Below, in pieces: positions 33,229 to 55,251 of a DNA stretch of 64,000 nucleotides. Below the pieces are notes generated by a model. It was not told the DNA's origin, did no database searches, and saw only the letters and a list, made by a program, of their open reading frames with translations. A program made the translations under genes and the position numbers. Source of the DNA: Natronolimnobius baerhuensis (GTDB taxonomy: Archaea > Halobacteriota > Halobacteria > Halobacteriales > Natrialbaceae); contig NZ_MWPH01000001.1 in the NCBI RefSeq assembly GCF_002177135.1, positions 806,001 through 870,000 on the forward strand, written 5' to 3'. Each line of letters starts with the position of its first letter. Positions within the stretch are counted from its first letter, which is position 1.

Positions 33229-33402
33229 ATGATTCCCAAGCGGATCGAGTCTCCGATGACACAGCATTACCTACCACACCGAGTACGCGGTCACAGACGG
33301 ACAACAGGCCCTCCATCAGCGTCTGCGCCTCGCTCGAGCGAGCGAACACGCGATGAGTATCTGTACAGGCCACGACAGCTGGGGGGTGCCCCGGATGAGT
33401 GA
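33229..33402 (+). CDS. Candidate leader ORF (57 codons)
   Basis: ATG 33229 to TGA 33400-33402, overlapping the acetyltransferase ATG by eight bases (ATGAGTGA). The peptide is Arg/Pro/Ser-rich, unlike halophilic proteins. GGGGGG before the downstream ATG may act as ribosome-binding site. Confidence 0.4.
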   Translation: MIPKRIESPMTQHYLPHRVRGHRRTTGPPSASAPRSSERTRDEYLYRPRQLGGAPDE

Positions 33403-33988
33403 GGCACTTCCCAGCCAGGTCGTTCGCGGCGAGGATTGTGCAATCGACGACGAGGCAACCGTCGGCTACGGCGAGTTCGACGAACCGACGAGACTCGGCG
33501 ACGAGGCGACGATCCGAGCCGGCGCAATCGTCTACGGCAACGTAACGGTTGGCGACGAGTTCACCACTGGCCACGACGTGCTCGTCCGCGAGAACACGAC
33601 CATCGGCGACGACGTCCTCGTCGGGACGAAAACGGTCATCGACGGCGAGACGACCATCGGCTCGCACGTGAGCCTGCAGACGAACGTCTACATTCCGACG
33701 AACACGACCATCGGCGATAACGTCTTCATCGGCCCCAGCGCTGCCCTGACCAACGACGAGTACCCGGTCCGGACGGACAACGGACTCGAGGGGCCAACGC
33801 TCGAAGATGGGGCCTCAATCGGTGCGAACGCGACGCTACTACCCGGTGTGACGATTGGCGAGAACGCCTTCGTCGCAGCAGGGTCGGTCGTCACCGACGA
33901 CGTCCCGGCGAACAGTCTCGCGGTCGGAACGCCCGCGACGATTCAGGACCTCCCCGAACCGCTCGAGGGACCGAACGAAATCGCGTGA
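33395..33988 (+). CDS. Hexapeptide-repeat N-acetyltransferase, WbpD/WlbB type
   Basis: 197 residues, left-handed beta-helix acyltransferase with many hexapeptide units (TIGDDVLVGTKTVIDGE, TTIGDNVFIGPSAALTND, SIGANATLLPGVTIGENAFVAAGSVV). Length and pattern fit WbpD/WlbB, which acetylates the 3-amino group of UDP-GlcNAc3NA. The predicted product is UDP-2,3-diacetamido-2,3-dideoxy-glucuronate, supported by the next three genes. First gene of a five-gene operon. ATG 33395 is chosen for the downstream start of the repeat domain and the coupled leader ORF; ATG 33353 is in frame but less likely. Confidence 0.85.
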   Translation: MSEALPSQVVRGEDCAIDDEATVGYGEFDEPTRLGDEATIRAGAIVYGNVTVGDEFTTGHDVLVRENTTIGDDVLVGTKTVIDGETTIGSHVSLQTNVYIPTNTTIGDNVFIGPSAALTNDEYPVRTDNGLEGPTLEDGASIGANATLLPGVTIGENAFVAAGSVVTDDVPANSLAVGTPATIQDLPEPLEGPNEIA

Positions 33989-33992
33989 TAGC

Positions 33993-35219
33993 ATGAGTGA
34001 GACGAACGTCGATACTGAGAGTGAGTCGGACCACGCCAGGCGCATCGACACGGAACCAACAGAGCCGCCGACGAGCGAGACGGCGGCGACCGAGGAACTC
34101 GAGGGCTCGGTCTCGATTGCAGAGCCGGACGTCAGTGACGCAGTCGTCGAGCGCGTCCAGTCTGTGATCGACGGCGGTGGGCTCGCAGACGGCCCCGAAG
34201 TCCGCGCCTTCGAAGACGAGTTTGCAACCTACTGTACTGCCGACCACGCCGTTGCAACCTCGAACGGAACGACCGCGCTGCACGCCGCCCTCGAGGCGTT
34301 CGGCGTCGGCGAAGGCGATGCGGTGATCACGTCTCCGTTCTCGTTCGTCGCGAGCGCGAACGCGATTCGGCTCGCTGGCGCGACGCCCGTTTTCGCGGAT
34401 ATCGACCCGGAGACGTACACGCTCGATCCCGATGCCGTCGAAGCGGTCCTCAAGCGCCGGTCAGACATCGTCGGCCTGCTGCCGGTGCATTTGTACGGAC
34501 TGGCGGCGGACATGCCAGCCCTGAACGCACTCGCGGACGACGACGACCTGTTCGTCCTCGAGGACGCCTGTCAGGCCCACGGCGCGCGGATCGACGGCGA
34601 GCGCGTCGGCTCGATTGGCGATGCCGCGTGCTTCTCGTTCTACCCGACGAAGAACATGACGACTGGTGAGGGCGGCATCATCACGACCGATAGCAAGGAC
34701 GTCGCCCAGCGCGCCCAGCAGTTCGTCAATCATGGGCGCGGCCAGAGCGGGACTGGCGGCTACGAGCATCTCGACCTCGGGCATAACTTCCGGATGACGA
34801 GCATCGCGGGCGCAATTGGATCCGGCCAACTCGAGCGCCTCCCAGATTTCAACGAGGCTCGTCGTGAGACCGCCGCCTACTATAACGAGCACCTCGCAGA
34901 GTTGCCACTCGAGACGCCGACGGAGCCTCGTGGCTACCGGCACGTCTACCATCAGTACACGGTCCAAACCGACAGTCCGGCCGAGCGAGATGCGCTCGCG
35001 GAGACGCTCGAGGCGTACGATGTCGATTCGGCGATCTACTACGATACACCCATTCACCAGCAACCGGCCTACGAGTCGCTGAGTACGGCTGCCGCGTCGT
35101 TCCCGAAAGCCGAGCGAGCAGCTGAGACCGTCCTGTCCCTGCCAGTCCACCCCGGACTATCCGACGTCGAGCGACGAACCGTTGTCAAAGCAGTTACCGA
35201 TCACTACACCTCCCAATGA
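33993..35219 (+). CDS. DegT/DnrJ/EryC1-type aminotransferase, WbpE type
   Basis: 408 residues. Residues 1-40 are an acidic extension. Then come the PLP-enzyme landmarks: ALADGPEVRAFEDEFA, SNGTTALHAAL, FSFVASANAIRLAGATPVFADID, EDACQAHGA, and the lysine that binds PLP in SFYPTKNMTTGEGG. C-terminal VYHQYTVQTD is typical. In the WbpA/B/E/D pathway this enzyme transaminates the 3-keto sugar. It follows the acetyltransferase stop after four bases and overlaps the next gene (ATGA). Confidence 0.87.
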   Translation: MSETNVDTESESDHARRIDTEPTEPPTSETAATEELEGSVSIAEPDVSDAVVERVQSVIDGGGLADGPEVRAFEDEFATYCTADHAVATSNGTTALHAALEAFGVGEGDAVITSPFSFVASANAIRLAGATPVFADIDPETYTLDPDAVEAVLKRRSDIVGLLPVHLYGLAADMPALNALADDDDLFVLEDACQAHGARIDGERVGSIGDAACFSFYPTKNMTTGEGGIITTDSKDVAQRAQQFVNHGRGQSGTGGYEHLDLGHNFRMTSIAGAIGSGQLERLPDFNEARRETAAYYNEHLAELPLETPTEPRGYRHVYHQYTVQTDSPAERDALAETLEAYDVDSAIYYDTPIHQQPAYESLSTAAASFPKAERAAETVLSLPVHPGLSDVERRTVVKAVTDHYTSQ

Positions 35220-36256
35220 GCACGGAACACACACTTTCTCGAACACGAACGCCCGCAGGCGTCATCGGCGTTGGCGCGATGGGCGCAAACCACGCACGCG
35301 TATACAGTGAATTACCGAACGTCGAATTAGCCGGAGTCACCGACCACGACACTGCCGTCGCCAAAGAGGTCGCTGAGAAGTACGGCACCGACGCGCTCAC
35401 GCTCGAGGAGTTGCTCGAGCGCTGTGAGGTCGTCACAGTTGCCGTCCCGACGCACGTCCACTACGATCTGGTGACGACCTGTCTCGAGGCGGGTGTCAAC
35501 GTCCTTGTCGAGAAACCAATCGCGAAGACGGTCGAGGAAGGCCGGCGAATGGCCGCACTGGCCGAGGACCGTGGACTCGTCCTTCAGGTTGGCCACATCG
35601 AACGATTCAATCCAGCCGTCCAGACGGTTGGCGAACTGATCGACGAACTCGATGTCATCAGTCTCGAGGCCGAGCGACTCGGCCCGCCAATCGACCGGAC
35701 CGCACCCGGCAACGTCGTCTTCGATCTGATGGTCCACGACGTGGATATCGTCGGCTCGATCCTCGAGTCGACGCCGAACTCGATTACGGCGATGGGGACC
35801 GAAGACGGCCGCTATGCGACCGCGACGATGGAGTACGACGACATCGTCGCCTCGCTGACCGCCAGTCGCGTCACCCAGAAGAAGGTCCGAAAACTGAACG
35901 TGACTGCCCGCGAGTGCTTCGTCGAAGTCGACTACCTCGAGCAGTCGGTGCTGATCCATCGGGACTCCTATCCGGAGTATGTCAATGACGAAGGCCAGAA
36001 ACGGTATCGCCACGAGAGCGTCGTCGAACGCCCTCGCATCGACAACGGAGAACCGCTGCGTCACGAGTTAGCGTCGTTCGTCGAGAGCGTTCGACGGAAC
36101 GACAAACCGGAGGTCACCCCACAGGACGGCATCGAGGCGCTCGAGGCGGTCCAGACCATCGACCAACTGGTCGACAACCGACAGGGCAAGACGCCCGGTG
36201 CGGTGGTATCCGACCGTGAACACGAGACCGACGAACGGGAGGTGGAAGCGCCTTGA
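35216..36256 (+). CDS. Gfo/Idh/MocA oxidoreductase, WbpB/WlbA type
   Basis: 346 residues. The NAD-binding fold opens with GVIGVGAMGANHARVYSEL (residues 15-33). It is followed by AVPTHVHYDLVTTCLEAGVNVLVEKPIAKT, with the EKP motif, and the substrate-domain stretch HIERFNPAV and MVHDVDIV. WbpB/WlbA oxidises C3 of UDP-GlcNAcA before transamination. Here the position between aminotransferase and 6-dehydrogenase genes supports that role. The start overlaps the aminotransferase stop. Confidence 0.87.
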   Translation: MSTEHTLSRTRTPAGVIGVGAMGANHARVYSELPNVELAGVTDHDTAVAKEVAEKYGTDALTLEELLERCEVVTVAVPTHVHYDLVTTCLEAGVNVLVEKPIAKTVEEGRRMAALAEDRGLVLQVGHIERFNPAVQTVGELIDELDVISLEAERLGPPIDRTAPGNVVFDLMVHDVDIVGSILESTPNSITAMGTEDGRYATATMEYDDIVASLTASRVTQKKVRKLNVTARECFVEVDYLEQSVLIHRDSYPEYVNDEGQKRYRHESVVERPRIDNGEPLRHELASFVESVRRNDKPEVTPQDGIEALEAVQTIDQLVDNRQGKTPGAVVSDREHETDEREVEAP

Positions 36257-37752
36257 CAGCGAGCGAGGACGACACCGTGGACGCACCCGCACTCTACGAC
36301 TCGAGCGTCGATGAACCGCGCCAACACGACCTGCTCACCAGCGGCGAAATTCCTGTCGCCGTCTACGGTCTGGGAAAAATGGGCCTGCCGCTTGCGAGCA
36401 TCTACGCCGAAACGACCGGCAACGTCACCGGCGTCGACGTCGATCCGTCCGTCGTCAAGACGATCAACGGCGGCGAGAGTCACGTTATCGGCGAACCCGG
36501 ACTCGACGACCTCGTCGCCGAACACGTCGGTGCCGGCCGACTCGAGGCGACGACCGATGGTGCGAAAGCGGCCGCCGAGGCGCGCATCCACGTCATCATC
36601 GTGCCGACGCTGATCGACGAGGACAACCAGCCGAACCTCGCAACCGTCGAATCCGTCGCCGACGATATCGCGGCGGGTCTGTCGCCGGGCGATCTCGTCA
36701 TCGCCGAGTCGACGCTGCCGCCAACGTCCTGTCGCGACGTGATCAAGCCCCACCTCGAGCAAGAAAGCGAGCTCTCGGGCGACGAATTTGGGCTTGCCTT
36801 CTGTCCGGAGCGCACCTCGAGCGGCCGTGCGTTAGCAGACATCCGCGGTGCGTACCCGAAGGTCGTCGGCGGCGTCGACGACGAGAGCACCCGCGCGGCG
36901 AGTATTATTTACGACGAAATTTCGGACAACGAGGTCCATCCGGTTTCGGACGCGACGACCGCAGAGTCGGTCAAGGTCTTTGAAGGCGTCTACCGCGACG
37001 TAAATATCGGCCTGGCGAACGAACTCGGCCGACTCGCGGATGAACTCGGCATTTCGGTCCGCGAGGCAATCGAGACCGCAAACGACCTTCCGATGTGCCA
37101 GCTACACGAGCCTGGTCCGGGCGTTGGCGGCCACTGCATTCCGTACTATCCGCACTTCTTGCTCTCACAGAACGAGGAGCCACTCGAGGTGACCCAAACT
37201 GCACGAGCGGTCAACGACGGCATGCCAGCGGTCGTCGTCGACCGCCTCGAGCAGGAACTCGCCGCCACGGGTACCGATCTCGCGGACGCCTCGGTTGCCG
37301 TCCTCGGGATCACCTACCGAGCGGGCGTCGAGGAAACCCGCGCGTCGCCGGCGCTTGGCGTCATCGAGAATCTACAGGACCGCGGTGCGGACGTTTTCGG
37401 CGTCGATCCGCTCGTCGATCCCGCAGAGTACGGCACACGCCCGCTCGAGGTCGACGACCTTGCAACTGAAGCCGACACGCTCGATGCGGTCGTTCTCGTT
37501 ACACCACAGGCGGAGTTCGAGCAGATCGAGTGGGACGCCCTCGAGCCGATGGTCGTCGTGGACAGCCGGGATGCACTCGACCTCGCTGCGACCCACCACC
37601 GCGTCTACACCCTGGCTGGCGGCAGTGACGGACGGCCGCCACGTCCGGCAGTCGACAGCGAGACGACTGGACTCGAGGCGGGAGCAAGTACCGAGCCCGA
37701 GACCGAGGCGGAACCCGGTGCAACCCGAACAGACGGAGGCTCCGATGTATAA
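36253..37752 (+). CDS. UDP-N-acetylglucosamine 6-dehydrogenase, WbpA type
   Basis: 499 residues. UDP-glucose/GDP-mannose dehydrogenase family: NAD-binding VYGLGKMGLPLAS (near residue 38), ESTLPPTSC, FCPERTSSG, the central helix EGVYRDVNIGLANELGRLA and the catalytic Cys in GVGGHCIPYYP. It would oxidise UDP-GlcNAc to UDP-GlcNAcA, the first step of the pathway. The start codon is TTG at 36253, overlapping the previous TGA and preceded by GGAGGTG at a spacing of eight bases. An acidic tail of about 35 residues ends the protein. Confidence 0.9.
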   Translation: MTASEDDTVDAPALYDSSVDEPRQHDLLTSGEIPVAVYGLGKMGLPLASIYAETTGNVTGVDVDPSVVKTINGGESHVIGEPGLDDLVAEHVGAGRLEATTDGAKAAAEARIHVIIVPTLIDEDNQPNLATVESVADDIAAGLSPGDLVIAESTLPPTSCRDVIKPHLEQESELSGDEFGLAFCPERTSSGRALADIRGAYPKVVGGVDDESTRAASIIYDEISDNEVHPVSDATTAESVKVFEGVYRDVNIGLANELGRLADELGISVREAIETANDLPMCQLHEPGPGVGGHCIPYYPHFLLSQNEEPLEVTQTARAVNDGMPAVVVDRLEQELAATGTDLADASVAVLGITYRAGVEETRASPALGVIENLQDRGADVFGVDPLVDPAEYGTRPLEVDDLATEADTLDAVVLVTPQAEFEQIEWDALEPMVVVDSRDALDLAATHHRVYTLAGGSDGRPPRPAVDSETTGLEAGASTEPETEAEPGATRTDGGSDV

Positions 37753-40329: not shown

Positions 40330-41307
40330 TTACCGGAACTCCTCGCGGTACCAGGTGACCGTCTCGGGTAAGTGCTCCTCGAGTGGCGCGTACTCGTAGT
40401 CCAATTCAGTTTTAGCCTTCTCGGAGGTGTAGAACAGCCGCTCGGTCGCGAGTTTGGCCATCCGACGGTTAAACGGGAACACCTGGTGGTCCGTCACGGT
40501 ACCGACGGCTTCGGCGACCGGCCCGGCGGCGTGGATCGCCTGGGCGGGGACGGGAATCCGTGCCGGGACGCCGCCGAGGTGGTCGGAGATCCGCGAGACG
40601 GCGCGGTCGTAGGTCAGGTTCTCGCCGCCGAGGATGTAGTGTTCGCCGGAGCCGCCCTTCTCGTAGGCCGCGATGATGCCGTCGACCACGTCGGAGACGC
40701 CGACGATGCTCAGCCCGCCGGGGAGATACGCCGGCATCGTCGGCTCGAGGCCCATCGAGAGCAGTTGGGGCGTAAACGACTCGTCGCCGGGACCGAAAAC
40801 GGACGTGGGGTGGACGGTGACCGCGTCGCCGCCGGTAGCTGCGTAGCGGTCGACCAGCTGTTCGGCTTCGGCTTTCGAGGACTGATACGCGCCGATTGGT
40901 TCGGCGACGTCAGTCTCGTCCGCGAACGGCGAGGTTTCGTTCGGCTGGCGCGTTCCCGCGGTGCTCGTAAAGACCAGTCGGCCGACGTCCTCGCTGGTGC
41001 GACAGACCGAGAGCACAGTCGCCGTCCCGTCGCGGTTAACCCGCTTGACCGTCTCCGGACCGGCGCTCCAGAGACCGATTCCCGCGAGGTGAAAGACGGC
41101 GTCCGTCCCAGTAACCATCGATTCTAGGGTTTCGGTATCGAACACGTCGCCGGTGTACCACTCGAGGTCGGCATCCTCGAGGTCGCCCCGATCAGACGTG
41201 GGTCGAGAGAGCGCGCGGACGGTCCAGCCGTCCTCGAGTAAGCGCTCACAGAGATGTGTCCCGAGAAAGCCCGTTGCCCCTGTCACAGCTGCGATTTTGC
41301 TTGTCAT
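40330..41307 (-). CDS. NAD-dependent epimerase/reductase (extended SDR)
   Basis: 325 residues. SDR motifs TGATGFLGTHL, HLAGIGLW, Ser in FTSTAG and the catalytic pair in YQSSKAEAE, followed by HPTSVFGPGD. The overall pattern is that of the dihydroflavonol-4-reductase/HpnA group of extended SDRs rather than GalE. Third gene of a three-gene operon; two bases separate it from the DUF362 gene. Substrate unknown, probably a sugar nucleotide or lipid-linked intermediate. Confidence 0.83.
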   Translation of the reverse strand: MTSKIAAVTGATGFLGTHLCERLLEDGWTVRALSRPTSDRGDLEDADLEWYTGDVFDTETLESMVTGTDAVFHLAGIGLWSAGPETVKRVNRDGTATVLSVCRTSEDVGRLVFTSTAGTRQPNETSPFADETDVAEPIGAYQSSKAEAEQLVDRYAATGGDAVTVHPTSVFGPGDESFTPQLLSMGLEPTMPAYLPGGLSIVGVSDVVDGIIAAYEKGGSGEHYILGGENLTYDRAVSRISDHLGGVPARIPVPAQAIHAAGPVAEAVGTVTDHQVFPFNRRMAKLATERLFYTSEKAKTELDYEYAPLEEHLPETVTWYREEFR

Positions 41308-41309
41308 GG

Positions 41310-42266
41310 TTAGTGCTCGAGTTGTGGTGGAACGGCGTCGCCGCTGACGCCGGCATAGAGGCGATACGCTGTTGTTACCACAGGGTGCATCTCGCCCGTC
41401 GGCGGCAACTCGCCGCCCTCGAGTCGTGTGCGGATCGCGTCCAGATCGACGTCGCCGGTTCCGACTTGCTCGAGCGAGAGCGAGAGTGCCTTATCGTCGT
41501 CAGTCATGCCGACGGCCGTGGTGAGCACGTCGTCGTCGGTGATCGACCGGCCAAGGAGCGAGGTTCCAAGTGCATCGACCGCGGGGGCGGTGCCAGCAAA
41601 GAGTGCATCGGCAGCGTATGGTTCGTCGCCGTAGGCAACCGTCGCATCCAGAATCGAGACGGCCGGATCGATGGCACGCGTCGCAGCGACCGCAGCGAGT
41701 GTGTCATCGCCGGTCGAGTCGATGAACTCCGCGAGACGGTGCATGCCGCCCGCAATCGGTCCCGCTTCGGTCGGACGCAGCGTCGGCACAGAGATCACTT
41801 CTCCCTCGAGGAGTCGGTTCGGAACTGAGACGGTGACCGACCAGCCGTCGACCTCGCGTTGGGTATCGCTTCGCTGTTCGTCGGCGAGATCGACGGTTGT
41901 TGCGTCGAATCGCTCGAGCAGGCTCGAATAGCCGAGATACTCGGCCGTGCGGTCGAAGTCGATGATCTCGTCGGTCGCCCCCGCGACAGCGATCTCGGCG
42001 TCGAGGCGATCCTCGAGTTGGGAGACGAGCGCACCGACAACCGCTGGATCGGTCACCATGCCAGTCGATGGATGGAACGGATAGTGAGCGTCGGGGACGA
42101 TGGTAATCCGATCTGGCTCCGACCGGGCGAGTGTCTCGAGCGTGGGGTCAACCACGGCTCGAACCGGGGCCTCGAGACGGACCATCCGCGTGTCGAGATC
42201 GGGCGTCCAGCCGCCGCGGCGGTCGTCGGCGTCGGTGGGCGTTCCGCGAACAGTATGCTGGGCCAT
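41310..42266 (-). CDS. DUF362-family protein
   Basis: 318 residues, soluble. The DUF362 pattern is visible: ITIVPDAHYPFHPSTGMVTDP, DRTAEYLGY, then VPTLRPTEAGPIAGGMHRLAEFID and DATVAYGDEPYAADALFAGTAPAVDALGTSLLG. No iron-sulfur ferredoxin domain is fused, unlike many family members. Biochemical role unknown. It is translationally coupled between a Gfo/Idh oxidoreductase (overlap of one base) and an SDR gene, so all three should act in one pathway. Confidence 0.8.
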   Translation of the reverse strand: MAQHTVRGTPTDADDRRGGWTPDLDTRMVRLEAPVRAVVDPTLETLARSEPDRITIVPDAHYPFHPSTGMVTDPAVVGALVSQLEDRLDAEIAVAGATDEIIDFDRTAEYLGYSSLLERFDATTVDLADEQRSDTQREVDGWSVTVSVPNRLLEGEVISVPTLRPTEAGPIAGGMHRLAEFIDSTGDDTLAAVAATRAIDPAVSILDATVAYGDEPYAADALFAGTAPAVDALGTSLLGRSITDDDVLTTAVGMTDDDKALSLSLEQVGTGDVDLDAIRTRLEGGELPPTGEMHPVVTTAYRLYAGVSGDAVPPQLEH

Positions 42267-43369
42267 CAGGAGGTCACCTCCGGCGGCGGAACTTCGCCGC
42301 GGTCGGTTTCCTCGGCCAGTTCGTAGGCGGTTTCCGCGAGTGCGAGTGTCCGCCGCCCGACCTCGCCGTCGACCGGCGGCGTCTCATCGTTGCGAATCGC
42401 GTCGATGAAGTCCTCGAGTGCCTTATAGTGTGCCTGCAAGTAATACGTCGGTCCGAAAACCGTCCGGTCGCCACCCACCCGGCTGGCGACGTTCTCGAGG
42501 GCGGATTTCGCCGCGCCCGCGTAGAAGTTGTCTCGCAGGTGATTCTGGTTGCTGATCGTGCCCGTGATCCCCTCGAGTCGCAATCGGGTGTTCACCTCTG
42601 GCAACTGCTCCCACTGGTAGGAACCACAGTGAAGCGTGATGGTCGTCTGTGTCTCGGGCGCGCGCATAAGGACAGTTGCTGCATCTTCGACGGGCACGTC
42701 GAGCGTTTCACCCATCGCCGCGCTCTCGACCTCGAGGTCGCCAAAGAGCCACTCGAGGACGTCGAAGCAGTGGATTCCAAGCTCGAGCAGGGAGCCGCCG
42801 CCGGCCGCGTCGGGATCGAGCGGCCACGACGGGGGCGGATTCTGGATTGGTGGCCGCCCAAGCGGGCCGTCGTTGAGTCGCGTGATCGAGGCGTAGGGGA
42901 CGTGACCGACCGAGCCGTCCTCGTACGCCTCTTTGACGCCGACCATATCCGGCTGGTAGCGAAGCGTGTGATCGACGCTGACGTGAATGCCGGCCGCTGC
43001 TGCGGTTTCAAGCATCTGGTCGGCCTCCGCGGTCGAGCGAGCGAACGGTTTCTCGACGAACACGTCGACGCCGGCGGCGGCGGCCTCCTCGACGGCGTCT
43101 GCGTGTAAAAACGGCGGAAGCGCAACGATTGCTGCGTCGAGATCCTCAGAATGGAGTAAGGTTGCATAGTCGTCGTACGTACGAGTCACACCTTCGGTTT
43201 CGGCACGCTCGCGGTTTTCCGGGACCGCATCAGCGGCCGCAACTACGTCGACACCGGGCATTGCCCGTGCCGATTTCAGATGGACGAGACCGATGTTTCC
43301 AACGCCGAGAACGCCAACAGAGAGCGCACTCGAGTCGGTCCACCGGCTGAGAAGTCGTGTTGGTGGCAT
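42266..43369 (-). CDS. Gfo/Idh/MocA oxidoreductase
   Basis: 367 residues. NAD-binding VGVLGVGNIGLVHLKSA (near 18-34) and the motif VFVEKPFARS are followed by the substrate-domain helix HYKALEDFIDAIR. The LELGIHCFDVLEWLFGD stretch carries the usual His. It is a distant paralog of the WbpB-like gene at 35216, not a duplicate. First gene of the oxidoreductase-DUF362-SDR operon, with the ATAACAAAA motif 35 bases before the ATG. Confidence 0.85.
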   Translation of the reverse strand: MPPTRLLSRWTDSSALSVGVLGVGNIGLVHLKSARAMPGVDVVAAADAVPENRERAETEGVTRTYDDYATLLHSEDLDAAIVALPPFLHADAVEEAAAAGVDVFVEKPFARSTAEADQMLETAAAAGIHVSVDHTLRYQPDMVGVKEAYEDGSVGHVPYASITRLNDGPLGRPPIQNPPPSWPLDPDAAGGGSLLELGIHCFDVLEWLFGDLEVESAAMGETLDVPVEDAATVLMRAPETQTTITLHCGSYQWEQLPEVNTRLRLEGITGTISNQNHLRDNFYAGAAKSALENVASRVGGDRTVFGPTYYLQAHYKALEDFIDAIRNDETPPVDGEVGRRTLALAETAYELAEETDRGEVPPPEVTS

Positions 43370-43560: not shown

Positions 43561-44511
43561 TTAGTCATCGCCTGTCGGGTGGCCGTCAACGGCGACTACC
43601 TGTCCGTTGGCATCGGTTGCAGCGGCGACACGGCGTGCGACCTGGCCCATGGTTTCGACGGCCAGATCGGTTTTCGAACGCGTATGCTCGAGATACGAGA
43701 GGATTGCACGCATTCGCCGATCATCGCGCTCGTGAGTAAGGTTGTTCGGATGCAGCCACATGTGGAAGATGCCGTCCGACCGAACTGCTTCGTCGATTCC
43801 CCGTCGTGCCTGTGCGACCATCGGATCGGTCCAGATCGACTCCGCAACGGTTCGGGCCGGTCCTTCGAAGCCAAAGAGGAACATCGATGCGGGCACGTTA
43901 ACCAGACCGAACTCGTCCACGGCTGGCTCGACGAGCAGTGATTGATCCCGGAATCGTGTATCTACAATCCCGCGGAGGCCGTCCTCCGTCGGCGACTTCC
44001 CGCGATAGGCAGTGAGTCCATACTCGGCCAGCACATCTCGATGCCCGACATCGTTTCGCGGATAAATGAACGAGTCGACTGACTGGCCCCACTCATCGGC
44101 AATCGCCGTTGCTCGCTCGAGTTCGGCCCTCGCGAGGGCGTGATCGGTTGCTGCGTCGCCGAATAAGACGTGCGAAAACGAGTGGCTCGCAAACTCGTGG
44201 TCGACGGGAGATGCGAGCAACGCATCGACGAGATCGGGGGCGAACCGCAAGTCCTCGCGATCCGTCCACTCGCCGCGCTCCCGGTCGAACCAGCCGTCTG
44301 GTGCCGGGTGCTCCTCGTGACGGCCATCACAGGACTCGAGCATCAGGTGGCCAACGACGGCCCAGGTCGCAGGAATATCGTATTCCTCGCACAACTCGAG
44401 CATGGTCGACCAGCCGCGGCGGCCGGCTTCGACACGGCTCGGTGGCGGGGACTCGAGATCGTGAAATCCCCACCCGAGTTCAGCATCAAGCGAAAGCACG
44501 ACACTACCCAC
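43561..44511 (-). CDS. Polysaccharide deacetylase family protein
   Basis: 316 residues. The NodB-like fold opens with VVLSLDAELGWG (Asp base region). The metal-binding pair shows as FASHSFSHVLF, later MWLHPNN. It would remove N-acetyl groups from a sugar at the cell surface or in an intermediate. No ATG lies in a sensible place: the long frame to 44598 runs through the motif. GTG at 44511 is chosen because a 10-codon ORF starting 34 bases after the motif ends across it (GTGGGTAG). GTG 44523 and 44520 are alternatives. Confidence 0.82.
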   Translation of the reverse strand: MGSVVLSLDAELGWGFHDLESPPPSRVEAGRRGWSTMLELCEEYDIPATWAVVGHLMLESCDGRHEEHPAPDGWFDRERGEWTDREDLRFAPDLVDALLASPVDHEFASHSFSHVLFGDAATDHALARAELERATAIADEWGQSVDSFIYPRNDVGHRDVLAEYGLTAYRGKSPTEDGLRGIVDTRFRDQSLLVEPAVDEFGLVNVPASMFLFGFEGPARTVAESIWTDPMVAQARRGIDEAVRSDGIFHMWLHPNNLTHERDDRRMRAILSYLEHTRSKTDLAVETMGQVARRVAAATDANGQVVAVDGHPTGDD

Positions 44512-44536
44512 AGACGCCACCACGCGTTCTCGACAT
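44504..44536 (-). CDS. Candidate leader ORF (10 codons)
   Basis: ATG 44536, TAG 44506-44504, overlapping the GTG start of the deacetylase by eight bases. The shortest of the six motif-linked leader ORFs. Confidence 0.35.
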   Translation of the reverse strand: MSRTRGGVCG

Positions 44537-44561
44537 ACACGGAAGGGACTCTGGGACCGGC

Positions 44562-44570
44562 TTTTGTTAT
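44562..44570 (-). promoter_or_regulatory. ATAACAAAA motif, deacetylase gene
   Basis: Minus-strand ATAACAAAA, 34 bases before the leader ATG at 44536. Confidence 0.65.
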
Positions 44571-44778
44571 TCAGGCCCTTGCAGGTGCGGGCGTACACTC
44601 ACCAGAGCGACAGCAGCGCTCACTCGGGTGAACCGTTTCGTGAGGCGAACAACTCTGTCTGTGTGACTCACAAGCTGACCAACGGTAATCCAATCGAACA
44701 GCGAGAAAGGGCGGTATTCATCGTGTTAACGCAACCGAACGCGACAGGTTAGGATTGCAACTACTGTGAACACTCCCT

Positions 44779-44829: not shown

Positions 44830-46428
44830 ATGAGCGGATCTACCACTCCGTCCGAACGAGCGTTCGTTCTCGGACTCGACGGCGTACCGTGGCGACTGAT
44901 CGACCAATGGAGCGACGACGGCAAACTCCCGAACTTCGCCCGACTGCGCGAAGAAGGCGCGTCAGGGCCGCTCGAGAGCACGACGCCAGCGACGACGCCG
45001 CTTGCGTGGCCCTCAATTGCAACCGGCGTCTGGCCGGACAAACACGGACTCTACGGCTTCCAGAACCTCTCGAGTGAGTATACACACGAGATGTATACGA
45101 GCCACGACATGCAACAACCGGCGCTATGGGAGCAACTCGGCCCGTCCCACGTCGGCAACGTGCCGATGACGTTCCCGCCTCGAGAGATCGACGGGACGAT
45201 GGTTACGGGAATGATGACACCCTCGACCGACCAGCAGTTCACGCATCCGCCGGAACTCAGTGAGAAACTCAAAGAGCGCATTCCTGAGTACAACATCAGC
45301 CTCGACTATCCGGACTACGCCGACCGACTCGACGAGTTCGAGGGCGCTGTCGACACCATGCTCAGCCAGCGCCGGGAGGTCATGAACCTCCAGATGGAGG
45401 AAGCCGGCGACGACTGGCAACTGTTTTTCTTCGTCTACACCGCGCCGGATCGCTTCCAGCACCTCATCTGGGATATGGATCGCATCCTCGAGCACTACAA
45501 AAAACTCGACGACATTCTCGGCGAGGTGATGGACTACACGGACGAGCACGACGCAGACCTCTACGTCGTCTCCGACCACGGCTTCGGCGAGATTAACGAG
45601 CTGATCTACGTCAACCACATTCTGGAGCGAGAGGGCTATCTCTTCCGCCGAGAGGACGAGGGAACCCGTGGCGCACTCGCGAGTCTGGGCATCTCGCGCG
45701 AGCGAATTACGGACATGCTCGACCGGGTGGGGATCTCCGAGGAGATGCTGATCTCGAATCTTCCGCGAAGCTTGCTCGATACCGTCGCCGAGCAGATTCC
45801 CGGCGATCACGCGCTCTATGATGTCGACTACGACGAGACGATTGCGTTCGTCCACGACGCCGGCAACGTCTACATCAACGACACCGAGCGATTTGACAAC
45901 GGCGTCGTCGATCCGACCGATATCTCGAAGATCAAAGACGAACTTACCGAGGTCTTCGAGTCAGTGACCGACGAAAACGACACGACACTGCTCACCGTCT
46001 ACGACGGCGACGACCTGTTCCCGACCGACGAGGACTCGCCGGATCTGATCGTCAAAGGCATCGACGGCTACGACGCCCGAAACGGTATCGCCGACGAACC
46101 GTTCGGCGACACCGGCAACTACGCCGCCAGCCACCGCAGCGAAGGCATTGTCCTCTGTCGCGGCCCGTCAATCGACGAGGGTGCAACGCTGCGCGGCGCT
46201 CGAGTCGTCGACATCGCGCCGACGCTGCTTCACGGCATCGGGCAACCAGTTCCAGACAATGCGGACGGACGCGTCCTTTTCGACGCATTCGACGAGGAAG
46301 CGACGCCCGCCCGGACGAAAGTCGAACGCGCCGACGTCCTGACTGGCTCCTCGAGTCCGGACGGCGAGGTCGACGAGGACTTCGACGATGTGGAGGATCG
46401 GCTGAAAGGACTCGGCTACATGGAATAA
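44830..46428 (+). CDS. Alkaline-phosphatase-fold type I phosphodiesterase (paralog of 7902-9515)
   Basis: 532 residues. Metal-binding FVLGLDGVPWRLID, nucleophile region TPATTPLAWPSIATGVWPDKHGLYGF, YTAPDRFQHLIWDMD and VVSDHGFGEINE are present, and a late NYAASHRSEGI stretch. Unlike the left-hand paralog it keeps the standard GLDG start. No signal peptide. A role in cleaving a phosphodiester- or pyrophosphate-linked glycan intermediate is inferred from its place in the locus. Confidence 0.87.
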   Translation: MSGSTTPSERAFVLGLDGVPWRLIDQWSDDGKLPNFARLREEGASGPLESTTPATTPLAWPSIATGVWPDKHGLYGFQNLSSEYTHEMYTSHDMQQPALWEQLGPSHVGNVPMTFPPREIDGTMVTGMMTPSTDQQFTHPPELSEKLKERIPEYNISLDYPDYADRLDEFEGAVDTMLSQRREVMNLQMEEAGDDWQLFFFVYTAPDRFQHLIWDMDRILEHYKKLDDILGEVMDYTDEHDADLYVVSDHGFGEINELIYVNHILEREGYLFRREDEGTRGALASLGISRERITDMLDRVGISEEMLISNLPRSLLDTVAEQIPGDHALYDVDYDETIAFVHDAGNVYINDTERFDNGVVDPTDISKIKDELTEVFESVTDENDTTLLTVYDGDDLFPTDEDSPDLIVKGIDGYDARNGIADEPFGDTGNYAASHRSEGIVLCRGPSIDEGATLRGARVVDIAPTLLHGIGQPVPDNADGRVLFDAFDEEATPARTKVERADVLTGSSSPDGEVDEDFDDVEDRLKGLGYME

Positions 46429-46609: not shown

Positions 46610-47287
46610 TTAGAGGATGTCGGTGATTTCGTGCATCCATGAGAGGTGAAACGTCGGTTCTGGCTTCGGATTCGACGAGACATCTTCTTCCGGCACCCAT
46701 GCAGTTTGCATGCCGACACGCTGGGGACCAACAACATCACGATCATGCTGATTCCCCACGTAGATGGACCGCGCAGGGGAACTTCCGAGTTCGTCTAGAG
46801 CAATCTCGAATGGTTCTGGATTAGGCTTCGATTCGATTCCAGTCCCGGGCCCGCAGCAGACAGTAACGTCAAAGGCATCCTGGATACCAAGCGTCTCTAA
46901 CTTTGGGAGTTGTGTCTCCTCGGAACCAGCAGTGATGAGTCCAACAGCATACGTTTCTCGGACATATTCCAATACCTCGTTTGCACCGTCTCGGAACGAG
47001 ACAGCGGTCGGATCAAGTACCTCGAGTGTCGCCTCAGCAAGTCTGGGCGCATAACTCGGATCAGCACCGACGTTCCGAGCAATAGCACGATAGATATGTT
47101 CGTGATGTTCTCTATCGGAGTTGGCTTCTGGAAGGGAGCTGTAATCGACTGCATATATATCAGCCAAATCAAAAAACGCTGGAGCCTCTACCCGGTCAAA
47201 TACCGCTTCATAGACCTCCTCATCGGACTGATCTCTCACACAAAGCGTTCCATCGAGGTCGAAACAGACAGCCTCAATAGTGCCCAT
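46610..47287 (-). CDS. HAD-superfamily hydrolase
   Basis: 225 residues. HAD motif I (CFDLDGTLC, near residue 8), motif II in LITAGSEE, the Lys of motif III in SKPNPEPF and motif IV in YVGNQHDRDVVGPQ. It belongs to the phosphoglycolate-phosphatase/haloacid dehalogenase group. The gene uses many more A/T-ending codons than its neighbours. It is flanked by an A/T-richer stretch (46540-46610), which suggests recent acquisition. ATG 47287 is chosen, close to motif I; ATG 47299 is possible. Convergent with the phosphodiesterase gene. Confidence 0.85.
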   Translation of the reverse strand: MGTIEAVCFDLDGTLCVRDQSDEEVYEAVFDRVEAPAFFDLADIYAVDYSSLPEANSDREHHEHIYRAIARNVGADPSYAPRLAEATLEVLDPTAVSFRDGANEVLEYVRETYAVGLITAGSEETQLPKLETLGIQDAFDVTVCCGPGTGIESKPNPEPFEIALDELGSSPARSIYVGNQHDRDVVGPQRVGMQTAWVPEEDVSSNPKPEPTFHLSWMHEITDIL

Positions 47288-47456
47288 CGTCTCAAACATC
47301 ACTGAACTAGGATCTAAATTCACTGGATCGCTGATAAACTACTCACAGAGCAAGGGAACGAATGGCTCGTTCACGTGTGGTGCGTTCAGTTCGCAGACAT
47401 AGTTACTTTCCTCGTCAGTCCGTCAAAACGCACTCTCGAGCGCTCTCCCAAACTCC

Positions 47457-48773
47457 CTACCGGCCGCGAACCCGATCCAATCCACCTTTTGCCGACTTCA
47501 ACACCGGATACGCCGCGTTGTAGACCGGCGTTGGTGCGTTACGCGCGCCCGCGCGAAAGAGTCGATGTGAGAGCGGCGGCTCGGAGTTATCGACCAGTGC
47601 CTCGAGATCGGCTCCGTCGAGCCACTCGAAGAACGATTCCTCCTCGGGGGAGTCGGGCTCGGTCTCACGAACGCGGTCGCGAATGTCTGCCCACATGTAG
47701 CGTTCGTCCTGGCCGAGAATCCACTGGCCCTCCTCGAGTGCGGTTCGGATCGCGGCGTACTCCGTGTCGGCGAAGTCGTAGCCGTGGTCGCTCGGCTCGA
47801 GGCCGGAGAGTCGGAGGCCGACGGCGGTGCGATAGCACTTTTCGCACTCGCCGCAGTTGCCGTCCATCCGCACGTTGCAGGTCTGGAGTTGGAGGTCGGG
47901 GGCGTCCGTCTCGACGTAGTCGGCGATGGCGTCGAGGCGCTCCTGTCGGGTGAGTTCGTAGGCGTCGTGATGACAGCGCGTGCCGCTCCAGCGGACGTAG
48001 TCGTCGATATCCGGGCGCGAACCCCACTCGAGGTCGATGCCGTCCCAGTGGGTCGCAGCGACGTACAGATCCTCGATCCCGCGCGCGTAGGCCATCGGCG
48101 CACAGAGGCCGAGCAGGCCGAGGCCGTGGCCGACGGAGCTGTACCAGGCCCCGTCGACGAACCGTTTGTAGTGTGCGAGTAACATCGCGTGGTCGAGCGC
48201 CTCGAGCGTGTTCGTCTCGATAAAGGCCGTCTCGAGGTCACGCTCGTCGGCGAAGCCAGTAACTCGGTTCTGGAGGTGTTGCCAGTCAGTCTCGCCGGCT
48301 TCGCCGGGGGAGATGGTCCAGCCGCGGATGCTGACGAGCGTGGGCGACTCCTCGCGGTGGCGGACGTAGGAACTTGTCGAGTCGACGCCGCCGGTAAAGA
48401 GCAAGGCGCTGTCGCTCGCGTCGGCCGCGCGCTCGAGCGGTTCGGACGTGGTCGTCTCTTTAGCGTACAGCGTCCCACCCTCGAGGAAGTCGTACATCTC
48501 GAGTAACGAGGCTTTGACGTCCTCGAGTGCGCGCGCGAAGGTGGCGTCGACCGTCTCGACGTAGACGTCCGCGCCGTTGGCCCAGGCGACGGGACAGACG
48601 TTTGCGAGGACGGGAATCACCAGGACGCTCTCGGGAACGTCCTCGATAGAGCAGTCGTAGCTGGTCGTAAACGGCTTTCCAGTGAAAAAGCGAGCGAGAT
48701 CGGCGGACGGGCGAACCACACACTCGACGGTGTCCCCCTCCGCAGTGGGTGAGTCGATGACAATCGATGACAT
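47457..48773 (-). CDS. QueC-like PP-loop ATPase family protein
   Basis: 438 residues. The N-terminal 110 residues have no recognised family. The ATP-binding PP-loop then follows as LLFTGGVDSTSS (Thr-Gly-Gly-x-Asp-Ser, 127-132). Cys at 299, 307, 310 and 313 (C-x7-C-x2-C-x2-C) matches the zinc site of QueC, the 7-cyano-7-deazaguanine synthase. Length exceeds QueC (about 230) and the N-terminal part is extra. It could amidate or otherwise activate a carboxyl group of a sugar. ATG 48773 has TTTTTGTA about 30 bases upstream; the longer frame to 49064 overlaps the neighbouring promoter. Confidence 0.75.
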   Translation of the reverse strand: MSSIVIDSPTAEGDTVECVVRPSADLARFFTGKPFTTSYDCSIEDVPESVLVIPVLANVCPVAWANGADVYVETVDATFARALEDVKASLLEMYDFLEGGTLYAKETTTSEPLERAADASDSALLFTGGVDSTSSYVRHREESPTLVSIRGWTISPGEAGETDWQHLQNRVTGFADERDLETAFIETNTLEALDHAMLLAHYKRFVDGAWYSSVGHGLGLLGLCAPMAYARGIEDLYVAATHWDGIDLEWGSRPDIDDYVRWSGTRCHHDAYELTRQERLDAIADYVETDAPDLQLQTCNVRMDGNCGECEKCYRTAVGLRLSGLEPSDHGYDFADTEYAAIRTALEEGQWILGQDERYMWADIRDRVRETEPDSPEEESFFEWLDGADLEALVDNSEPPLSHRLFRAGARNAPTPVYNAAYPVLKSAKGGLDRVRGR

Positions 48774-49095: not shown

Positions 49096-49149
49096 ATGCG
49101 TATCGACAGCGAACCGCGACGCCGTTGTTCTGGTGATGAATTGGCATGA
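49096..49149 (+). CDS. Candidate leader ORF (17 codons)
   Basis: ATG 49096, TGA 49147-49149, overlapping ATG 49146 as ATGA. A GGTGATG stretch inside it can serve as weak ribosome-binding site for the GT-C-like gene. Confidence 0.45.
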   Translation: MRIDSEPRRRCSGDELA

Positions 49150-50936
49150 GACGAGCGACACTGAACCTCACGTTTGCACTCGGGTTTCTCGCGGCGGCAG
49201 CTGGCATCCTCGTGGCCAGGGCGAACCCTGCGACGGGGTACGAGCCGTCGGTGTATCTTGGAACCCCGACGGCCGTCTGGATCGGGTTTGCGATTGCGAT
49301 GGCAATCGGCGTCGGAACGGCACTCGCCTGTCGGGGGCGACAGCAAGCAGTTGGAATCGGCCTCGGCAGTCTGGTCGTCACAGCGATTGTCGCGCTCCCG
49401 ATCCTGCGAAACTACCGGTTTTCGGGGATGGGCGATGCACTCTCTCACCTCGGTTGGACGCGCGACATCGTCGAGGGTGGCATGTACCCTCACGAACTGC
49501 TCTACCCAGGTGTCCACTCAATCGGTGTCGTGTTTCACTTCCTCGGGGGAATTCCACTCGAGCGCGCGCTCCTGTTTACGATCTTACTCCTGTTCATCCC
49601 GTTTCTGATCTTCGTGCCGTTGACGGTCAGAGAGATCGCGGGTCCGGGAGCGGCGGTCGGCTTCGCCGCCGTCGTCTCGTGGATGGTGTTGCCGATCAAC
49701 AACATCGCGACGCACATGGGCGTCCACTCGAACTCCAATGCTCTGTTTCTGGCACCGGTTGTCATCTTCGCGCTCGTTGCCTACCTGAATCGGCAGGCGA
49801 CAATCGAGCGACTCCCACTTGGACTCTCGCCGTTTAGCGTCGTGCTCTATCTCTCCGCGATTGCCCTCCTGTTAGTCCACCCACAACAGATGGTCAACGT
49901 CGTCGTCCTCGTCGGTGCAATCGCCGGGATTCAGCTCCTCGCCCGCTGGCGCTACGACGACCACCCCATTCTCGAGCAGCCGACGACCTACGCACACACG
50001 GCCGTTCTCGGCGGCTTTTTCACCGTCTGGGCGGCATCGAACGAGCGATTCCGGAACGCGATTGTCAGCCTCGTCGACGGCGTTCTCTCCGATGAGGTCG
50101 GTGCTGGACAGGAAGTCGACCAGCGTGAAGCCTCGCTGCTCGAGATCGGCGGCAGTATCGAGGAGTTGTTCGTCACGATGTTCCTCGAGGCGGCGGTGAT
50201 CGGCCTGATTGTCGGCCTGTTCGTCCTAGCGATGTGGCTCGGCAAGACGAAGACAAGTCGGGCAACGGCGACACATGTTACCTATCTCAGTCTCGCGTTG
50301 ATCCCGCTTGGTGGGGTCTTCCTCGTCTACTTCGTCGGCACGCCAACAATGGCGTTCCGACAGGTCGGGTTCATTTACGTGATCTTAACGATCCTTGCCG
50401 GGATTGCACTCGCGCACTTCTTCGGTGGGCTGTCGACCTATGTGACTCGCCCGGGTGCGAACACGGTCGCGGCGCTCACACTCGGTGCGTTCCTCGTTCT
50501 TGGGTTGATGACCGTCTACGCCTCGCCGATCATCTACAGCCCAAGTCAGCACATTACCGATCAGAAGTTCAGCGGCTACGAGTCCGGCTTCGAGCACGCA
50601 GCCGAAGACCGCCCACACGTCGGGATGGGATACGATCCGTACCGGTATGACCACGGTATCAACGGCCTCGACCGCGAGGACGTTCTGAGTGGGGCGACAC
50701 ACGACAGCGGTGAGATCGACTCTGAACAGTTCGAAGCGGGCAATTACAGCGGGGCCTATCACGATTCGGATTACTATTTCACTGTTACCGAATTCGACGT
50801 CACCCGCGAAACACAGGTCTATCAGGGCTTACACCACAGTGACGCAGCACTCGAGGGGATCCAGTACGATCCAGCGGCAGACAAGGTTATTTCGAACGAC
50901 GAGTTCGACATGTACGCCGTCGCTAGCGATGAGTAA
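49146..50936 (+). CDS. GT-C-like polytopic membrane protein (paralog of 2648-4465)
   Basis: 596 residues, about 12 membrane helices and a soluble tail of roughly 110 residues. The N-terminal NPATGYEPSVY (27-37), the loop YRFSGMGDALSHLGW...EGGMYPHELLYPGVH (90-124), and the tail SGYESGFE with YRYDHGING match the left-hand paralog. An acidic residue followed by His in the first large outer loop suggests a lipid-sugar-dependent GT-C glycosyltransferase or ligase (inference; no named family recognised). A short coupled ORF and the motif precede it. Confidence 0.75.
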   Translation: MRRATLNLTFALGFLAAAAGILVARANPATGYEPSVYLGTPTAVWIGFAIAMAIGVGTALACRGRQQAVGIGLGSLVVTAIVALPILRNYRFSGMGDALSHLGWTRDIVEGGMYPHELLYPGVHSIGVVFHFLGGIPLERALLFTILLLFIPFLIFVPLTVREIAGPGAAVGFAAVVSWMVLPINNIATHMGVHSNSNALFLAPVVIFALVAYLNRQATIERLPLGLSPFSVVLYLSAIALLLVHPQQMVNVVVLVGAIAGIQLLARWRYDDHPILEQPTTYAHTAVLGGFFTVWAASNERFRNAIVSLVDGVLSDEVGAGQEVDQREASLLEIGGSIEELFVTMFLEAAVIGLIVGLFVLAMWLGKTKTSRATATHVTYLSLALIPLGGVFLVYFVGTPTMAFRQVGFIYVILTILAGIALAHFFGGLSTYVTRPGANTVAALTLGAFLVLGLMTVYASPIIYSPSQHITDQKFSGYESGFEHAAEDRPHVGMGYDPYRYDHGINGLDREDVLSGATHDSGEIDSEQFEAGNYSGAYHDSDYYFTVTEFDVTRETQVYQGLHHSDAALEGIQYDPAADKVISNDEFDMYAVASDE

Positions 50937-53451: not shown

Positions 53452-53748
53452 GCTCGCGCGCACAGCTATGACGCTCGAGAGACAGTAAATCGACTCGTAT
53501 ACGAGACGGTCTCTCGGTGTGATGAGTGGTGAATTCGAACCAGTAGCAACGCCGACACAACTGCAAACAACAGTGTGAGCGCCGCTCGAGCGAAGTAAGA
53601 ACGTATTTACCGGGAAAATTTGATATTGACGGGGTGGAACCGACGTCCCTAAATTCATATATTCGTGAAGAATCTGTCGTACATTGTAACTATTCTCCAA
53701 CAGTCAGAAATACAATCTGTAAATTCAACCCATTATGGCACAGAAAAG

Positions 53749-53754
53749 TTTATG
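53749..53754 (+). promoter_or_regulatory. TATA-like box of beta-helix gene
   Basis: AAAGTTTATG, about 30 bases before ATG 53781. The same AAAGTTTAT occurs before the next paralog (55216-55224). Confidence 0.55.
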
Positions 53755-53780
53755 AGTGTAAGGGCTGGTTACGAAAGTGT

Positions 53781-54716
53781 ATGGCGCAGTACCCCCGTAC
53801 GTCCGAGACGGACGTTTCTCAGACTACAGGCCGTAATGCCGAATTAAGCCGACGCAGCTACGTACAGTCGATTGCTGCGGTTGCGACTGGTGCAGCCTCA
53901 CTCGGTGCGGTCGGCACGGCGGCCGCCGACGACGACTACGAGGTTATCGAAGCAACCGGTCAGACGATCCAGGTTGGCGATGGTGACACCTGGGAGAACA
54001 AACTCATCGATATGTCGACCGGTGGTGATATCATCATCAACGCCTACGGCTCCGACTGGACGATCCGAAACATCGGCTTCGACGGCCGAAACACCTCCGG
54101 CACCGGCTCCGCGACGTTCGGCGTCTGCGAGCAGGGTGGCTCGAGTACAATCGAGAATATCTACCTCGGTGACGGCTCCGACCAGCGAAACGGTGCCTCG
54201 ACCGGCCACGGTCAGACCGCCTTCTGGGTCGACCCTGACCACTCCGGCCACGTCGATTTCCAGCACCTCAACATCCAGGGCTTCGCGGACAACGCGATCT
54301 ATGGCTCTGCACCCGGCAACGCCGGTGGCGGCACCCTCCACATCGACGAGAGTTTCGCTGCGAACTGCCACGTCTCTCACTTCCGCCTCGCCACTGAAGG
54401 CAGCAAAGTGACGAACTCGAGCATCTACGTCGACGACGAAGACTACGCCGGCCGTGGGATCTGGGCCTGGGCACCCGGTACCATCGAAATCGAGAACTGC
54501 CAGATCGACATGAACGGTCACCACACCGCAATCGACGCGGGCGCAAACGGCAACGGCACGACCGTCGACGTCATCGACTGTGAATACGACGACACCGCTG
54601 GCATCGCCGAACACGCCGGCTCGAGCGTCGAACTCGAGGAGACGGGCACCGAACCGGAGCCGTTCGTTCCCGATGGTGTCCCGACGAGCGCCGAAGAAGC
54701 CGCACTCGGCGAATAA
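53781..54716 (+). CDS. Tat-exported right-handed beta-helix protein
   Basis: 311 residues. Twin arginines at 24-25 (ELSRRSYVQS), then an Ala-rich hydrophobic stretch to about residue 50. The mature part is a beta-helix, with ENKLIDMSTGGDI, WTIRNIGFDG, IENIYLGDGS, LNIQGFADNAIYGSAPGN and ENCQIDMNGHH. It ends in an acidic tail with PTSAEEAALGE, also found in the next protein (PTSAEEAAAG). No catalytic residues assigned; surface or secreted protein. It probably belongs to the same family as the truncated gene at 1-573. Confidence 0.87.
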   Translation: MAQYPRTSETDVSQTTGRNAELSRRSYVQSIAAVATGAASLGAVGTAAADDDYEVIEATGQTIQVGDGDTWENKLIDMSTGGDIIINAYGSDWTIRNIGFDGRNTSGTGSATFGVCEQGGSSTIENIYLGDGSDQRNGASTGHGQTAFWVDPDHSGHVDFQHLNIQGFADNAIYGSAPGNAGGGTLHIDESFAANCHVSHFRLATEGSKVTNSSIYVDDEDYAGRGIWAWAPGTIEIENCQIDMNGHHTAIDAGANGNGTTVDVIDCEYDDTAGIAEHAGSSVELEETGTEPEPFVPDGVPTSAEEAALGE

Positions 54717-55224: not shown

Positions 55225-55251
55225 CCGATAGTGTATTATTACCCGTTTGCA

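Follow-up and report, generated by a model that had tools for sequence, protein, structure and literature searches.

The gene at positions 47457–48773 of the window, our term for the whole analysed stretch of Natronolimnobius baerhuensis DNA (64,000 nucleotides), encodes a 438-residue PP-loop protein, and there is good support for placing it in a distinct, unnamed QueC/QatC-like family encoded in surface-glycan loci. The strongest signal from gene context lies beyond the 64-kb window: outside haloarchaea, the gene of this family is adjoined by a gene for a polysaccharide pyruvyl transferase.

The coordinates that an earlier note had assigned to the gene from sequence alone were correct; it lies on the minus strand, the plus strand being broken by stops, and homologues begin at the same methionine (Table 1). 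The TGGVDS PP-loop and C-x7-C-x2-C-x2-C set picked out in that note are real and cannot be put down to chance, because both are kept in essentially all relatives. A few family members have lost part of the loop. Of 48 aligned relatives, 47 had the PP-loop in its family form, and the four cysteines (C299-x7-C307-x2-C310-x2-C313) together with N306 were invariant in 48/48. W164, W210 and W361 were likewise invariant, as were P54 and D76 of the N-terminal domain, in which P61 and W64 were near-invariant. S252-x-P254, H269-D270 and R276 are also among the conserved residues. The family signature from these 48 relatives reads F-[ST]-x-G-[VIL]-D-[SA] ... G-S-x-P-x-x-D ... H-D-x(5)-R-Q ... C-x(7-10)-C-x2-C-E-K-C-x-R-T. 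The protein had been described as about twice the length of QueC, which holds (438 residues versus 247 for the QueC of the same genome), and as having an extra N-terminal domain; this domain was seen (about residues 1–115), but extra material is also present at the C-terminus, where it is helical (about residues 336–438). Searches of Pfam, NCBIfam, PADLOC and PHROGs returned no match, nor did the phage records searched, and searching PDB sequences with the single protein and with a profile retrieved no related chain, the weak matches being antibodies and a chitinase.

Table 1 Features of the window, including the domains and motifs of the PP-loop protein.
Feature	Position	Strand	Basis
PP-loop protein of the unnamed QueC/QatC-like family, 438 aa	47457..48773	-	Homologue starts agree
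N-terminal alpha/beta domain, about residues 1–115, family-specific	48429..48773	-	Model and conservation
QueC-like Rossmann/PP-loop core, about residues 118–335	47769..48422	-	QueC profile match; Foldseek to QueC/QatC
PP-loop FTGGVDS, residues 126–132	48378..48398	-	Sequence; conservation in relatives
Putative zinc-binding C299-x6-NC-x2-CEKC, residues 299–313	47835..47879	-	Conservation
Helical C-terminal extension, about residues 336–438, with invariant W361	47460..47768	-	Model and conservation
Predicted 596-aa membrane protein	49146..50936	+	No Pfam/NCBIfam match
HAD-type hydrolase, downstream of PP-loop gene on the same strand	46610..47323	-	Pfam scan
Type I phosphodiesterase/nucleotide pyrophosphatase family protein	44830..46428	+	Pfam scan
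Polysaccharide deacetylase	43561..44598	-	Pfam scan
Gfo/Idh/MocA oxidoreductase, trio gene 1	42266..43369	-	Scan; conserved in relatives
DUF362 protein, trio gene 2	41310..42266	-	Scan; conserved in relatives
NAD-dependent epimerase, trio gene 3	40330..41307	-	Scan; conserved in relatives
wbp-like set: hexapeptide acyltransferase, DegT aminotransferase, Gfo/Idh oxidoreductase, UDP-sugar dehydrogenase	33353..37752	+	Scan

An AlphaFold2 model built from 48 sequences (pLDDT 94.6, pTM 0.92) predicted a core flanked by an alpha/beta domain at the N-terminus and a helical extension at the C-terminus. Structure prediction with comparison to QueC had been proposed as a check, and the core of the model does match QueC: at E < 0.001, Foldseek against the PDB returned only QatC (9y02, 3.7e-6, 449 columns) and QueC (2pg3, 8.4e-4). 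Full-length superposition on QatC was nevertheless poor (TM only 0.35–0.39, high rmsd), and a second model, of the family member from Geothrix (pLDDT 86), had QueC as its top match (E 0.02, probability 1.0) with QatC outside its 50 best structural matches, so that the likeness of the modelled family to QatC is suggestive only.

Membership was assessed for three known families, and identity with QueC, QatC and WbpG was rejected on motifs, family models and the tree. Profile comparison with QueC gave a probability of 91% over residues 118–334, the whole core, and the SGGxDS PP-loop and Cx8CxxCxxC set of QueC have their counterparts in TGGVDS and Cx7CxxCxxC, the x7 spacing occurring also in the QueC of this genome. 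In Pfam/NCBIfam the protein was left unmatched by the QueC model PF06508 even at E = 1, and it was not among the PF06508 matches of its own genome. QueC proteins are also shorter, at about 220 residues versus 438, the family adding N- and C-terminal parts, and their substrate motifs VPxRN and YPDC, present in 8/8 QueC controls, were replaced in the family (0/48 relatives). In a tree of 95 proteins, which we count as supporting evidence only because the alignment is very divergent, the QueC controls formed one group (support 98), split by a branch of support 97 from the PP-loop family and its sister set. Motif absence, profile comparison and tree thus indicate a QueC-like core in a family of its own. 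The earlier note would have given up a role apart from QueC had the genome held no other QueC and had the protein clustered within the QueC tree; neither was the case, and the separate true queC that it had suggested looking for was found (C1:481774-482403, full-length, 252 bits), and a gene of the QueD family (C1:483332-483682) lies about 1 kb from it.

The family was carried by 67 of the 74 sampled genomes of Natrialbaceae, the taxonomic family of the window, and by 9/218 genomes elsewhere in the class. Full-length members were also found in several archaeal MAGs and, among bacteria, in Priestia, Pseudobutyrivibrio, Cohnella, Aquibacillus, Galbibacter, Aquimarina, Psychrobacter, Geothrix, Couchioplanes and Chloroflexota. 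The family is rare in bacteria, no more than about 2% of roughly 300 genomes giving matches in each of three phyla. Weaker bacterial matches mostly belonged to a sister PP-loop family of about 360–430 residues with FSGGVDS and NCGxCEKCxRT (L133, L135-L146, L148), of which some Pseudomonadota genomes carry several copies and for which no Pfam model was found; profile comparison joined the two families with 100% probability, but the sister proteins are mostly shorter and formed their own group in the tree. Tandem copies were frequent (three in L120; two in each of L039, L049, L101, L102, L108, L109 and L122). Two members share a Priestia plasmid locus with DUF6395, to which one family member had a match far below cut-off; no paper naming DUF6395 was found in the literature searched. 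The gene of one Natrinema hispanicum strain (L092:10001-11306) is broken across two frames, by a frameshift or a sequencing error. The nearly co-linear contigs L116 and L119, apparently from one metagenome, are labelled Bathyarchaeota and Tenericutes, and one of them is probably misbinned. An IMG/VR phage contig (L179:3688-4986) encodes a full-length member between apparent lysin and tail-fibre genes, a spot typical for genes with which phages alter their hosts.

Loci of the PP-loop gene carried glycan genes in the phyla sampled. Outside haloarchaea, a PF04230 (PS_pyruv_trans) gene directly adjoined it in 11/15 loci having one, compared with 2.8 expected under random placement within the locus (P = 2.6e-6), for genes called by a simple ORF rule in loci that are not fully independent and with a PF04230 profile whose source genes had first been spotted near the PP-loop gene. 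The adjoining gene was on the same strand in 10/11, and the two overlapped by 1 bp in four genomes (Geothrix, Psychrobacter, Faecalibacter and another Bacteroidota). Not every PF04230 enzyme has been proven to be a pyruvyl transferase. That profile found no PF04230 gene in haloarchaeal loci, and the literature searched yielded no paper joining a PP-loop protein with polysaccharide pyruvyl transferase.

Within the window, surface-glycan genes surround the PP-loop gene, as the earlier note had recognized. Of 45 close archaeal relatives, 44 have as divergent neighbour of the PP-loop gene the gene for the 596-residue membrane protein, which may be a glycosyltransferase or polymerase; the remaining one lies at a contig end. 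The trio of Gfo/Idh, DUF362 and epimerase genes lay ≤10 kb from the PP-loop gene in 27/45 of these relatives and adjoins it in Halorientalis litorea, and a glycan role is suggested for DUF362. A Bathyarchaeota MAG likewise has genes for DUF362 and Gfo/Idh proteins (L116:2788-4688), upstream of its PP-loop gene. Co-occurrence with wbp-like genes across haloarchaea, another proposed check, proved loose: the UDP-sugar dehydrogenase of the wbp-like operon was ≤25 kb from the PP-loop gene in 15/29 carrier genomes, with distances read by hand and undefined in three of the others, where the two genes are on different contigs. We therefore rejected a strict link to this operon. Relatives of the dehydrogenase were also present in 5/7 Natrialbaceae genomes without the PP-loop gene. 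UDP-sugar dehydrogenases occur near many other family members, a raw frequency within the loci of this family. Two adjacent related proteins further along (53634-54716 and 55231-57315) look secreted, with a twin-arginine-like start, the second being longer and having internal repeats.

The reading that we favour, possible though short of probable, is that of an ATP-dependent enzyme by which a carboxylate on a surface sugar is activated and converted to an amide. We propose this by analogy because QueC-type chemistry consists of carboxylate activation and amidation (PMC13329287), a carboxylate-to-amide model for the family, and because neighbouring genes would make sugars with free carboxylates (pyruvyl ketals and uronic acids). 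The enzyme would adenylate a free carboxylate on a sugar. In haloarchaea the candidate substrate is a uronate; in bacteria the carboxylate could belong to a uronate or to a pyruvyl ketal. AMP would then give way to ammonia or a small amine, leaving the amide. The wbp-like operon is a possible source of the uronate, and the earlier suggestion that the protein amidates the uronic acid of this operon is chemically sensible, but the linkage that it needs is loose. Against amidation, haloarchaeal members are without a nearby pyruvyl transferase and their uronate link is loose; moreover, since the QueC substrate residues are replaced, the substrate and even the reaction type may differ. ATP use, zinc, carboxylate activation, nitrogen donor, substrate and product are all properties that we infer for the family. 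A uronamide is already known in a Wbp pathway, where it is made by the asparagine-synthase-type WbpS (PMC7468200); the proposed product is the same, but WbpS/AsnB-type amidotransferases are a different family, and no asparagine-synthase domain was found in the protein with Pfam.

An enzyme like WbpG/WbuX, forming an acetamidino group or otherwise amidating an N-acetyl sugar, would use ATP to activate the acetamido oxygen and insert ammonia. It would account for the PP-loop, the Cys4 set, the glycan locus and the window's Wbp-type genes for diacetamido sugars, but we consider it unlikely, as the kinship with WbpG raised in the earlier note was not borne out. The TIGR03573 model (WbpG/WbuX, NASAT) did not match the protein, profile comparison reached 5.6% probability over 30 columns, and the two were separate in the tree. 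WbpG/WbuX carries a CxxC...CxxC tetracysteine motif (PMC10607449), whose cysteines precede the PP-loop in the fetched WbuX-family proteins, whereas all four follow it here. The solved NASAT structure was outside the 50 best folds for the model, and scanning the neighbours identified no HisH/HisF-like ammonia donor. Sulfur could instead replace the PP-loop-activated oxygen to give a thiocarboxylate or other sulfur-bearing sugar, as many PP-loop enzymes (LarE, TtuA, MnmA) are sulfurtransferases. This is improbable, because the Cys4 set is like the zinc site in QueC and unlike the three-Cys cluster of LarE (PMC13329287), and neither a sulfur carrier nor a desulfurase was recognized in the neighbours scanned.

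The QueC fold has recently been found reused for protein modification in phage defence (PMC13279940, PMC13329287), and a QatC/Cap9-like ligase would attach an acid either to the N-terminus of a protein or to a surface-glycoprotein amine. Among solved structures, the best match along the whole protein is QatC, which belongs to the Qat anti-phage system and is similar in length. QatC has a core with N- and C-terminal extensions (PMC13279940), an arrangement that the protein may share, to judge from its model and the poorly superposed QatC match. Such a ligase is distinctly unlikely even so: QatC models in PADLOC and NCBIfam left the protein unmatched, the signature TxTxHP occurred in 0/48 relatives versus 5/5 QatC, and the Cx19CGxCxxR of QatC contrasts with Cx7 in the protein and about Cx7-10C in the family. 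Profile comparison (hhalign) gave 32% probability over 84 columns, QatC is not among the 50 best matches of the Geothrix model, and the context is one of glycan genes, with neither qatA, qatB or qatD nor a CD-NTase partner recognized in the neighbours scanned. Finally, the QueC-like core would also fit a 7-deazaguanine enzyme (preQ0/archaeosine related) that sits in a glycan locus by chance, a reading that is largely refuted and that we regard as scarcely credible given the true QueC elsewhere in the genome, the missing QueC motifs and the glycan context across phyla. The earlier statement that no queuosine/archaeosine genes lie nearby was borne out, none being identified among 20 neighbouring ORFs scanned against Pfam. 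No full QueC match was found in the Galbibacter, Aquimarina, Couchioplanes and Faecalibacter carriers. Among the carriers searched, two isolate genomes, those of Cohnella mopanensis and Aquibacillus halophilus, lacked a full QueC as well as any QueD-family gene, and the substrate therefore need not be 7-deazaguanine.

The PP-loop family is without a Pfam or NCBIfam model, and no study of it was found in the literature searched. A further reading is doubtful: these widespread unnamed QueC/QatC-like ligases might modify the carboxylates of surface polysaccharides, the bacterial pairing with pyruvyl transferase giving an amidated pyruvyl ketal, a glycan decoration of which we know no example. If true, this would be a further reuse of the QueC fold, in the chemistry of sugar coats, after its use for protein modification in phage defence, and the pairing with pyruvyl transferase across phyla offers a direct, testable lead to the substrate of the family.
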